Assembly (NCBI GenBank): GCA_029553475.1 | Contig: JAKPKV010000115.1 | Location: 1-53,057, forward strand | Direction: 5' to 3' | Source of the DNA: Armatimonadota bacterium | GTDB taxonomy: Bacteria > Armatimonadota > Hebobacteria > CAIYQO01 | Length of the DNA stretch: 53,057 nt | Part shown: in pieces, positions 2,338-27,972 of the stretch | Position numbering within the stretch: the first letter of the stretch is position 1 | Layout: the number at the start of each line of letters is the position of its first letter | Notes under the pieces: generated by a model | What the model was told of the DNA's origin: nothing | Seen by the model: only the letters and a program-made list of their open reading frames with translations | Database searches by the model: none | Position numbers and translations under genes: made by a program

Positions 2338-2464
2338 GGACGGAGAATTGAAAAATTGACAATTGAAAATCGCAGACTGGGAAGTGGGGGCCGGGACGTG
2401 AAAAGTGACCCGCCGTGGTATCTGTGCACGTTTGTGAGTATGTGTCCTAATCGAAGCAACCTAA

Positions 2465-24852: not shown

Positions 24853-25451
24853 TCCGCCCCCTCCCGCCGCCATGATGCCCCATCTTACCGCGCGAGATAC
24901 ACGGGCGCAACGGCGGGGGGTTGGTCTTTGGGCGGGCGCGTGTCCTCGCGAGCCGACGCCGGGAGGTCTGCGGTGATATCCCCCCTGGCAAGCAAACAGA
25001 AAGATGCTGCATCGCCGCCCGCACCGTGATACCCGCAGAGCGCCCGTCTGCCGGAAGAACCCCGCGCCGGCGGTCATACCCAGCCTTTGGGCAGAAAAGC
25101 ACTCTTTTTATTTTCTCGCGCCTTGGCGCCCTGGCGCCCTGACGTGAGATTTTCCGCGAACACGACGCCCCCCCGTTTGGCGAACACGCACCAATTTGGG
25201 GGAGTCAGCGGAGGGTCTCCGCGGTTGCACCACGAAGCAGGAAGAAGGGAAGCGGCCAGGGATTGGGGAGGAAAGGGCGGTCGCGCGGCAGGTCCGGGCG
25301 ACTATGCGGGCGGCGCGTCCGCGCGCGGCGCGACGGCGTCTTGCCCGCCCTTTTCGTTTTTCAGAAAATCTGGTACAGTGTGGCGGGCGCCATGCCGGAC
25401 TCTTTCCGCATGACGCCTCTCTCGTGACCCTGACCCGTGACTGGAGTCGCT
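24853..25451. other. Intergenic region upstream of etfB
   Basis: About 600 nt without a supported gene between divergent genes. It includes a short direct repeat (GGCGCCCTGGCGCCCTG near 25125-25141) in text of the CGCGCCTTGGCGCC kind and a GC-rich stretch up to 25330. A TACAGT box at 25372 is a weak -10 candidate for etfB. I see no RNA gene or riboswitch. Confidence 0.6.
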
Positions 25452-26249
25452 ATGAACATCGTCGTGTGCATCAAGCAGGTGCCGCAGACCACGAACGTGA
25501 AGATTGACCCGGTGACCAACACCCTCGTGCGCGAAGGCGTGGAGTCCCAGATCAATCCCTTCGATCTCTACGCGCTGGAAGAAGCCGTGCGGGTGAAGGA
25601 GCGCCTGGCCGCGCAGGGCGTGGAGAGCACCGTGACGGTGGTCTCCATGGGCCCGCCGCAGGTGGACGCCGCGCTGCGCGAGGCGCTCACCCTGGGCGCC
25701 GATGCGGCCGTGCTGCTCTCCGACCGCGCGTTCGCCGGGTCCGATACCTGGGCGACCTCGTATGCGCTGGCCGCCGCGGTGAGCGCGCTGAAAGCCGACC
25801 TGGTCTTTTGCGGCATGCAGGCCATTGACGGCGACACCGCGCAGACCGGACCGGGCATCACCGTGCATGCCGAATATGCGCTGGCCACCTACGTGAGCAA
25901 GATTGACGAGATCAGCGAGAAGCGCGCCACGGTGCACCGCCTGCTGGAAGACGGCTACGAGGTGTGCGACGTCGCGCTGCCCGCGCTCTTCACCGTGGTG
26001 AAGGAGATTAACGAGCCGCGCACCCCGTCGCTCCGCGGCAAAATGCGCGCCAAGTCGGCGCAGATTCCCGTGTGGACCGCCGCCAGCCTGCAGCTCGACC
26101 CCGAGCGCTGCGGCCTGAAAGGCAGCCCCACCCAGGTGGTGAAAGTCTTCAGCCCCGAACACCGCGCCGGCGGCGAACGCTGGGAAGGCGACCCGACGGA
26201 GCTGGCGGCGAAGCTGCTGGAGATCGTGCGCGAGCGCGTGACGGTGTGA
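25452..26249 (+). CDS. etfB: Electron transfer flavoprotein beta subunit
   Basis: A 265-aa EtfB/FixA. It starts NIVVCIKQVPQTTNVKIDP and contains FDLYALEEAVRVKE, VVSMGPPQVDAALREAL, and CGMQAIDGDTAQTGP, all typical of the FixA/EtfB AMP- or second-FAD-binding subunit; the bifurcating type carries FAD here. ATG at 25452 has a weak ribosome site. Its partner etfA follows after an inserted four-helix-bundle gene. EtfA in this locus has two [4Fe-4S] motifs, which points to an electron-bifurcating ETF. Confidence 0.92.
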   Translation: MNIVVCIKQVPQTTNVKIDPVTNTLVREGVESQINPFDLYALEEAVRVKERLAAQGVESTVTVVSMGPPQVDAALREALTLGADAAVLLSDRAFAGSDTWATSYALAAAVSALKADLVFCGMQAIDGDTAQTGPGITVHAEYALATYVSKIDEISEKRATVHRLLEDGYEVCDVALPALFTVVKEINEPRTPSLRGKMRAKSAQIPVWTAASLQLDPERCGLKGSPTQVVKVFSPEHRAGGERWEGDPTELAAKLLEIVRERVTV

Positions 26250-26260
26250 TCAGGATTGCA

Positions 26261-26293
26261 CAATGAATAATGGTGAATAGCGAATTGAGAATG
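26261..26293 (+). repeat. Left flank repeat of the four-helix-bundle cassette
   Basis: 33-nt AT-rich element CAATGAATAATGGTGAATAG plus continuation; 26 of 33 positions match the reverse complement of 26708-26740. It lies 12 nt after the etfB stop. Confidence 0.8.
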
Positions 26294-26303
26294 GAGGCGG
26301 GGG

Positions 26304-26741
26304 ATGCGCGAGGACGTTCAGCGGTTGCTTGCGCCAATGGATGATTTCGCAACCCATGTGATTGATCTGGTCGAGGAATTACCAACTTCCCCGGTCGGTC
26401 GGCATATCGGTGGGCAATTACTGCGTTCCGGCACATCCACTGCGGCAAATTATGAAGAAGCCTGTGCAGCGGAGAGCCGTGCCGACTTCATTCATAAAAT
26501 GCAAATTTCACTGAAGGAGATGCGAGAGTCACGATTCTGGTTGCGGATGCTGAAACGACGCCGTTGGGCGCAAGCAGAGAAGGCGGCAGTGCTCTATGCG
26601 GCAGTGCTCTATACTGAAGCAGACGAGTTATGCCGAATCTTCACGCAGTCAGTGGTGACGGCAAAGAAATCCAAGCGTCCGAACGTGCTCTCCGGTTTTC
26701 TATTTTGCATGCTCAATTCACGATTCTCCATTCTGCATTAA
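26304..26741 (+). CDS. Four-helix-bundle protein (S23/23S-IVP family)
   Basis: A 145-aa protein of the four-helix-bundle family first seen in 23S rRNA intervening sequences. It has the family pattern LPTSPVGRHIGGQLLRSGTS, TAANYEEACAAES, DFIHKMQISLKEMRES and WLRML, with an alpha-helical, Glu/Arg-rich composition. Its base composition is more A/T-rich than the flanking etf genes. It sits between etfB and etfA in an otherwise coupled pair, flanked by 33-nt imperfect inverted repeats. The last about ten residues (SGFLFCMLNSRFSILH) are encoded partly by the right repeat, so the original C-terminus was probably shorter. A 15-nt tandem duplication (GCAGTGCTCTATGCG type, near 26588-26617) makes VLYAAVLY. 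Function unknown; likely a mobile passenger. Confidence 0.9.
   Translation: MREDVQRLLAPMDDFATHVIDLVEELPTSPVGRHIGGQLLRSGTSTAANYEEACAAESRADFIHKMQISLKEMRESRFWLRMLKRRRWAQAEKAAVLYAAVLYTEADELCRIFTQSVVTAKKSKRPNVLSGFLFCMLNSRFSILH
26708..26740 (-). repeat. Right flank repeat of the four-helix-bundle cassette
   Basis: Inverted partner of 26261-26293. It overlaps the end of the four-helix-bundle gene and lies 20 nt before the etfA start. Confidence 0.8.
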
Positions 26742-26760
26742 CCCGAAAAGAGGAATACTG

Positions 26761-27972
26761 ATGTCCATTCGCGTCATCGAAGATAAGTGCAAGGGGTGCA
26801 CCCTCTGCGTGAAGGCGTGCCCGACCATGGCCGTGAAGATGGAGGGCAAGCTGGCCACCATCGCGGTGGAGAGCTGCAACTTCTGCGGCTCCTGCGTGAG
26901 CGCCTGCAAGTTCAAGGCGATCACCATTGAGATCGAGAAGCAGGCGCGCGAGGACCTGGACGCCTACACGGGCGTGTGGGTCTTCGGCGAGCAGCACGAC
27001 GGCCAGCTCGCCGGCGTGGTGCCGGAGCTCATCGGCGCCGGGCGCCGGCTGGCGGATGCCCGCGGCTGCGCGCTGGGCGTGGTCGTGCTCGGACACGAGC
27101 TGGACGCGCTGGGCGCGGCGGTGGCGAAGTATCCGGTGGACAAGGTCTACCTGTATGACCACCCGAAGCTGGCCCGCTATCGGCCTGAGCCGTATTCGCG
27201 CGTGCTGGCCAACCTCTGCCGCCGCTATAAGCCGGAGATCGTGCTCGCCGGCGCCACCACCATCGGCCGCGGCTTCCTCTCCCGCGTGGCGGTGGATCTG
27301 TATACCGGGCTCACCGCGGACTGCACCGGGCTGGAAGTGGGCGAGGACGGGCTGCTCTACCAGACGCGCCCGGCCTTCGGCGGCAATATCATGGCCACCA
27401 TTCTCTGCCCTTACACGCGCCCGCAGATGGCCACCGTGCGCCACAAGGTGATGCCGGCGGCGCTGCCCGGCGACGTGGCGCGCGCCGCGATCATCCGCGA
27501 GACGCCGGTCGAGCAGCTGCTCACCTCCAGCGTGAACATCCTGGAGTTCATCCCCGATTTCACCCAGAAGGTGAACCTGGTGGACGCCGACGTCATCGTC
27601 TCCGGCGGCCGCGGCATGGGGAAGCCGGAGCATTTTGCCCTGCTGCAGGAGCTGGCCGACCTGCTCGGCGGCGCGGTGGGCTCCTCCCGCGCAGCGGTGG
27701 ACGCCGGCTGGATGCCCTATCCGCACCAGGTGGGGCAGACCGGCAAGACGGTCTGCCCGAAGCTCTACATCGCCTGCGGCATCTCCGGCGCCGTGCAGCA
27801 CCTCGCCGGCATGTCCTCCTCCGACTGCATCATCGCCATCAACAAGGACAAAGACGCCCCCATCTTCCAGGTGGCGGACTTCGGCTTCGTCGGCGACGTG
27901 CTGGAGGTGGTGCCGGCGCTGATCACGCAGCTCAAGGCCGCGCGCGCGCCGGTGGGCGTGTGCGGCGCGTAG
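26761..27972 (+). CDS. etfA: Ferredoxin-fused electron transfer flavoprotein alpha subunit (bifurcating type)
   Basis: A 403-aa EtfA with an N-terminal ferredoxin domain holding two [4Fe-4S] motifs ([12 protein letters not shown] near residue 10 and [12 protein letters not shown] near 40). The ETF alpha domain follows with the FAD-binding C-terminal landmarks VSGGRGMG near residue 280, [20 protein letters not shown] and [10 protein letters not shown]. Ferredoxin-fused EtfA is typical of bifurcating ETFs such as the caffeyl-CoA reductase partner CarE, which couple NADH oxidation to ferredoxin reduction with a dehydrogenase. That dehydrogenase is not in this window. ATG at 26761 follows AGAGGA. 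The etf pair is separated by about 510 nt of inserted sequence. Confidence 0.93.

Follow-up and report, generated by a model that had tools for sequence, protein, structure and literature searches.

In the window, i.e., the whole stretch of 53,057 nt analysed here from an Armatimonadota bacterium (contig JAKPKV010000115.1), etfB (25437..26249, + strand; PF01012, E 1.5e-42) and etfA (26761..27972, + strand; PF00766, E 3.1e-38), the latter with an N-terminal ferredoxin domain (Fer4, E 1.2e-11), are the host genes upstream and downstream of a cassette that encodes a four-helix-bundle protein of 145 aa belonging to the S23 (23S_rRNA_IVP) family (26304..26741, + strand). The earlier note on this DNA had described an S23-type gene splitting etfB from etfA, and the profile searches agree with it: the protein reaches 53.8 bits against PF05635 (E 2.5e-14, curated cut-off 33.8) and 76.2 bits against TIGR02436 (E 2e-21, curated cut-off 24), and has a relative in the PDB entry 2RLD (E 1.1e-13).

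The gene is framed by two inverted arms of 32 nt each, found by a repeat search to be 81% complementary and separated by 414 nt; the left arm spans 26262..26293 (+ strand) and the right arm 26708..26739 (- strand), and the unit that they delimit (26262-26739) measures 478 nt. These values are in accordance with the repeats of 33 nt with 26 matching positions that had been reported, as is the position of the right arm, which lies inside the end of the ORF, overlaps the last S23 codons, and reaches into the stop codon. The heptamer composition of the arms had instead been missed: the left one consists of about five tandem heptamers of the form AATNNNG, readable as AATGAAT, AATGGTG, AATAGCG, AATTGAG, and AATGGAG, and the right one is the complement of a similar row, with lag-7 identities of.68 and.72, respectively. 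The inverted-repeat score of the locus is 20, and the arms are unlikely to be due to chance, since none of the 148 displaced control pairs described below reaches 18. In the predicted RNA fold of 26250-26745 much of both arms is paired (z -2.25, with 3/100 shuffles at least as stable); an rRNA location of the unit was not found, no Rfam match being present in the window at gathering scores.

Inverted arrays around S23 genes

The genomes searched were 101, including that of the window and its relatives, and a TIGR02436 match is present in 52 of them. The relatives' set comprises 73 S23 loci, mostly the better-scoring of the matches listed, together with the copies of the window's genome (G000), of its congener G001, and of G002; a locus was considered arrayed when its flank-to-flank inverted repeat scored at least 18. 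Loci with flanks shorter than 60 nt were left out (3/73 in this set and 1/80 in the named set), as was L095, which is the same place as L070. In the window's phylum and relatives 56/70 loci are arrayed and 14/70 fall below the threshold. An independent scan of named genomes from many phyla, in which the best 80 of 590 confirmed S23 loci were considered, gave 52/79 arrayed loci and 27/79 below, against 0/148 control pairs displaced by 850 nt on the same contigs; scores of at least 16 are reached by 60 of these loci and 5 controls, and scores of at least 14 by 67 and 11. Among the best 80 of 590, arrays are found in Planctomycetota (7/10), Bacteroidota (10/21), Pseudomonadota (9/10), Bacillota (5/7), Cyanobacteriota (3/4), Chloroflexota (2/3), smaller groups, and archaea of the Methanophagales (1/2). 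The cyanobacterial plasmid S23 genes tested are arrayed in all three cases (scores 29, 32, and 25); a pair of S23 genes on Calothrix plasmids shares the same gene neighbourhood and so gives no element borders. Viral contigs yielded five pattern matches and no true relative of the window S23 protein, and no phage record was found with the S23 protein of L067. One subfamily from the class of the window is armless (L117, L121, L125, L128, and L130), its scores of 10-14 being below the threshold.

The arms were picked by inverted similarity alone. In the named loci (best 80 of 590) the internal identity of the arms is.60,.58,.56,.51, and.50 at lags 7, 14, 21, 28, and 35, respectively, with a lesser peak of.35 at lag 8 and values of.24-.32 at the other lags, whereas control arms remain at.25-.32 throughout lags 1-21. 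The best period among 108 arrayed loci is 7 in 80, 8 in 21, and 9, 10, or 12 in 7; the median arm length is 40 nt and the median unit length 517 nt (77 elements). The unit consists of an S23 gene bounded on both sides by tandem repeats of a word of 7 nt (8 nt in some clades), with the two arrays mutually inverted; the word differs between loci and is common to both arms of a locus. A rotation-aligned logo of 74 heptamers gave a weak common core, A-G-(G/T), with an information of 1.96, whereas 30 position-permuted controls averaged 1.61 and did not exceed 1.70 (60 restarts for the data and 15 for the controls), and a conserved end sequence of the type used to recognise transposons and MITEs was not found, the words varying by locus. 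The idea that the same ends would recur beside other S23 genes is therefore borne out for the inverted tandem periodicity, which is common, and fails for the sequence, common only to that weak core; similarly, the mobile unit with defined ends postulated from the window was largely right, except that its ends are defined by period and not by sequence. Tools that recognise mobile elements by their sequence could overlook ends of this kind, in which no sequence is conserved. The arms were also considered as suppliers of stop codons in all frames, a candidate that was rejected because a stop triplet occurs in 46% of the words and in 48% of the shuffled ones.

The relationship between arms and protein was evaluated on a tree of 150 S23 proteins, with 3/153 left out (L099, which has a broken frame, and two short reads). 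The period (7, 8, or other, in the 97 loci where it is clear) requires 15 changes on the tree, whereas 1000 shuffles averaged 21.6 and never fell below 16, and the presence of arms requires 29, compared to a shuffle mean of 34.4 (p 0.008). One S23 clade is wholly of period 8 (L001, L092, L114, L119, L120, L124, and L127), and the more distant the S23 proteins, the less similar their heptamers (Mantel r -0.19, p 0.001); period and word are co-inherited with the S23 clade. The attribution of the ends to the unit thus holds, with most of the examined S23 genes framed and with period and word tracking the clade. It could be supposed that REP- or MITE-like extragenic hairpins, common at operon junctions, merely happen to frame S23 genes, and the window's genome does harbour other intergenic hairpins and solo arrays; such a secondary association is highly improbable, considering that arrays frame S23 genes in many phyla, that no displaced control does the same, and that the array period follows the S23 clade.

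Concerted evolution of the arms is suggested by their similarity, which in most loci is higher within the locus than with the nearest S23 relative (mean score 29.2 versus 15.4, own score higher in 99/107 loci), a comparison biased by the choice of loci with a high own score and in which 24/107 also reach 18 with the relative. The same is indicated by L079, L104, and L118, which sit on the same strand, with a tRNA gene on one side and that of the large SRP RNA on the other (Rfam): their words differ, with best periods of 12, 9, and 10 (the first two being weak calls), and in each of them the own arms agree (scores 34, 54, and 22). In this arrangement, seen in several genomes, the S23 element lies right behind the tRNA 3' end and before the large SRP RNA gene, and L075 belongs here too by sequence likeness.

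S23 genes and solo arrays in the window's genome

The genome of the window contains four S23 genes, all with inverted arrays (4/4) and each with its own word: AATNNNG in the window cassette, AATTGAC in the C126 cassette, GGATTTT in the C34 cassette, and the octamer GGTGAAGR in the C159 cassette. The C159 gene is flanked by what we take to be two transketolase subunit genes; here, as for pyrF, dnaK, dnaJ, and hsp20, the gene names are assumed from a reading of the sequences. Arrays of these four arm families also occur away from S23 genes, as the earlier note had anticipated with its solo ends. The one that it had described as a similar relic lying alone, a solo heptamer array AATTGAA/AATTGAC placed directly after an apparent TAG stop (2343..2371, + strand), is real, although it fits the repeat family of the C126 cassette better than the window arms, with scores of 24 and 19 against the C126 ends and of 16 and 13 against the window arms; the score of 24 derives from an alignment that takes in the preceding TAGGG.CGGAGAATTG.

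In the window's genome the pattern AATTGAGAATNGAGAAT, with two mismatches allowed, matches 27 times, with overlaps, at 13 places; 11 places are outside S23 cassettes, and the reversed pattern has no match. On inspection, many of these arrays begin within some tens of bases past an apparent stop codon. The octamer GGTGAAGR matches the same genome 196 times (51 for the reversed control) and the congener G001, which is 78% complete, 42 times (21 for the control). GGATTTT is rarer, with 9 matches (control 2), five of them in the C34 cassette, three in one C182 array, and one in C2, i.e., one clear site away from S23. For AGTCCGN, the arm word of a G001 cassette, no clear solo arrays were found in G001 or G000: 11/12 matches in G001 are inside its own cassette (G001 control 2), and G000 has 2 matches versus 1 in the control.

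The solo arrays of the octamer GGTGAAGN were also considered as inverted MITE-like pairs and this was rejected, as inspection of 20 regions revealed an inverted pair only at L267, the others looking single. In several solo octamer arrays (e.g., L268-L286, G000) the TGA at which the upstream ORF appears to stop lies within the array, and a composite repeat, roughly AGGCCCGAAGGGCC...TAGCCACGGGTG...CCCGTGGG, recurs beside the arrays at L269, L272, L276, L277, and L286. A further region of this genome, L035 (G000:C186, ~111992), carries a short unit, about 150-200 nt in length, that lacks an S23 gene but is bounded on either side by heptamer arrays, resembling a non-autonomous derivative.

Junctions, orientation, and selection

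None of the eight etfB-etfA junctions inspected in other genomes contains an S23 gene (0/8), and etfB and etfA abut within 0-1 nt in three of them (EtfA 64-67% identical). In the congener G001 (EtfA 94% identical) the etfB-etfA spacer of about 110 nt is without S23 and has a different hairpin, and behind a pyrF-like gene the situation is reversed, with an S23 cassette in G001 and another hairpin instead at the matching junction of G000. An S23 gene precedes a dnaJ-like gene in two genera belonging to the same family, and it is of a different clade in each (L002 and L100). Presence and absence of the unit therefore vary between relatives, and the window gene looks inserted relative to its kin, judging from the compared sequences. 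Of the insertion claimed for the window, the part concerning the other etfB-etfA junctions stands, while the congeneric site is no clean empty site; the junctions compared revealed neither a transposition event nor an exact empty site nor a target-site duplication, the last of which could not be delimited with other spacers occupying the S23-less junctions.

As for the hairpins, the one in the G001 spacer (L037, G001:C497) is near-perfect, GTCCGCGCCCTC...GAGGGCGCGGAC, the one behind the pyrF-like gene of G000 is a palindrome (L217, G000:C52), and operon junctions of the window's genus seem to gather several hairpin families.

The unit lies prevailingly in the sense of the adjacent genes: among the 108 arrayed loci a rough ORF scorer places both neighbours in sense at 74 and both in antisense at 5, with 23 loci mixed and 6 unresolved. 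The bias of 74 versus 5 has p 8e-17 against random insertion, although an ordinary operon gene would be mostly sense as well; the S23 gene of a Nostoc edaphicum plasmid is antisense to both neighbours. Where the upstream gene is in sense (90 loci), the median distance from its stop codon to the start of the left arm is 0 nt (overlaps capped at 25 nt), and where an in-frame ATG lies nearby (77 loci) the medians are 21 nt from the left arm end to the start codon and 7 nt from the stop codon to the right arm start. In the left arm G outnumbers C in 98 loci and C outnumbers G in 8, with 2 ties, and hence the G-rich strand points inward at both ends. For pairs with both loci arrayed, dN/dS is.075 (L001/L092) and.38 (L075/L079); the values of.079 (L134/L135),.077 (L155/L204), and.116 (L121/L125) come from pairs that include loci under the threshold or armless. 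Two further pairs yielded no ratio, and synonymous change is near saturation in several pairs.

In an alternative reading the S23 gene would be an ordinary operonic gene with an autoregulatory array, spread by horizontal transfer and not as an element: the S23 ring would bind the word of its own leader, one subunit per repeat unit, in the manner of TRAP, which binds its triplets, and the mirrored right array would be a second regulatory site. The low dN/dS of several pairs, the distance of 21 nt between left arm and start codon, the G excess of the left arm, the tracking of the S23 clade by word and period, and the five chains present in each of the structures of the S23 relatives 2GSC and 2RLD are all in favour of this regulation. 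However, it offers no explanation for the mirrored copy of the left word in the right array, for the presence of the unit in one congener and its absence in the other at two junctions, or for the solo arrays of the same words elsewhere in the genome, so that it is considered rather unlikely.

Proposed element and known systems

A second alternative concerns retro-mobility, in which S23 would act in trans as an accessory subunit of a reverse transcriptase, and the arrays would result from repeated copying of a 7-nt template. Its premise is the homology of Avd, a protein of diversity-generating retroelements, to PF05635, as reported (PMC10053308), and the prevailing sense orientation is in line with it. 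Moreover, PF00078 matches are present in 22/52 S23-bearing and in 10/49 S23-less genomes (odds ratio 2.9, p 0.02), a raw ratio uncorrected for genome size and kinship. Conversely, 30/52 S23-bearing genomes have no PF00078 match, including the single-contig G034 and G087, which nevertheless possess arrayed S23 genes (L080 and L085), and the only match in the window's genome is on another contig. A reverse transcriptase was therefore rejected as an obligatory partner and does not seem to be needed, and this second alternative is improbable. Avd also differs in acting together with the reverse transcriptase on template and variable repeats; on the side of S23 the comparison consists of genome-wide PF00078 matches.

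The reading preferred here, to which a probability of about 0.6 is assigned, is that the stretch between etfB and etfA is a free-standing S23 element, of the same kind as the intervening sequences (IVSs) of 23S rRNA that encode S23, lying in sense at an operon junction. According to this reading, the S23 pentamer would recognise the iterated word at both ends, the element would ride on host transcripts, and its arms could pair and be trimmed by RNase III, as published for rRNA IVSs; slippage and copying between the arms would keep them alike, and the unit may move between sites with the help of host functions. Selection on an RNA stem, considered for the arms, found no support: arm mismatches display no preference for G.U (212 G.U versus 202 A.C; 33 against 42 loci, p 0.74), and the lack of a G.U excess would fit recognition of DNA better than of RNA.

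In a broader and only tentative generalisation, S23 elements would represent very widespread mobile units of bacteria and archaea, with ends defined by period, in which a pentameric ring might read, or help to build, mirrored tandem arrays of almost any 7- or 8-nt word; S23-coding 23S IVSs would be one insertion class, and the excess of heptanucleotide repeats, for long without explanation, in cyanobacteria and Xanthomonas would partly consist of solo ends. S23 genes constitute a widespread four-helix-bundle family without a known function, and rRNA IVSs have been puzzling for decades; the common anatomy, with mirrored heptamer arrays and an own word per locus, gives a testable entry point to what S23 binds and suggests a source both of S23-coding rRNA IVSs and of the heptanucleotide repeats of bacteria.

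The closest known system is the 23S rRNA IVS of Coxiella burnetii, which is described as a 428-nt unit with an S23 ORF in sense to the host transcript, complementary termini that form a 28-bp terminal stem, and, before the ORF, tandem heptamers GACAGAT whose copy number varies between strains; RNase III cuts at the first repeat and S23p is a homopentamer (PMC4990558). The heptamers are reported there for one IVS and S23p is held to be expendable (PMC4990558), and in a search based mostly on paper listings this was the only publication found linking heptameric repeats with S23. Other 23S IVSs are described as having no ORF or as encoding a transposase (PMC2672173), and for CPR bacteria S23 ORFs are reported in insertions of both 16S and 23S rRNA (PMC11270868). 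The window unit resembles the Coxiella IVS in its S23 ORF, complementary ends, length of ~0.4-0.6 kb, and tandem heptamers at the ends; it differs from rRNA IVSs in lying between protein genes, as three other loci lie between tRNA and SRP RNA genes, and from the Coxiella IVS in having arrays that are inverted at both ends, with an own word per locus. No rRNA match was found among 20 S23 loci compared with Rfam, and the probable continuity of the free-standing units with rRNA IVSs is drawn from the published descriptions.

MITEs and REP/RAYT palindromes are likewise short intergenic units with inverted ends and solo derivatives, characterized by a conserved end sequence paired with one transposase. 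In the S23 units, in contrast, the end word differs from element to element and what is held in common is the period.

Heptanucleotide repeats have been described in Xanthomonas and Nostoc (GGGAATC and GGGGA(C/T)T) and in Beggiatoaceae (TAACTGA) (PMC4692102, PMC4679880), and the terms "S23" and "four helix" have 0 occurrences in the main text of both. Like the S23 arms, these repeats are tandem and intergenic, and in Xanthomonas they form 70-75 inverted pairs (PMC4692102, PMC4679880); on the basis of the window's genome and its congener, bacterial heptanucleotide repeats of this type may be solo ends of S23 elements.
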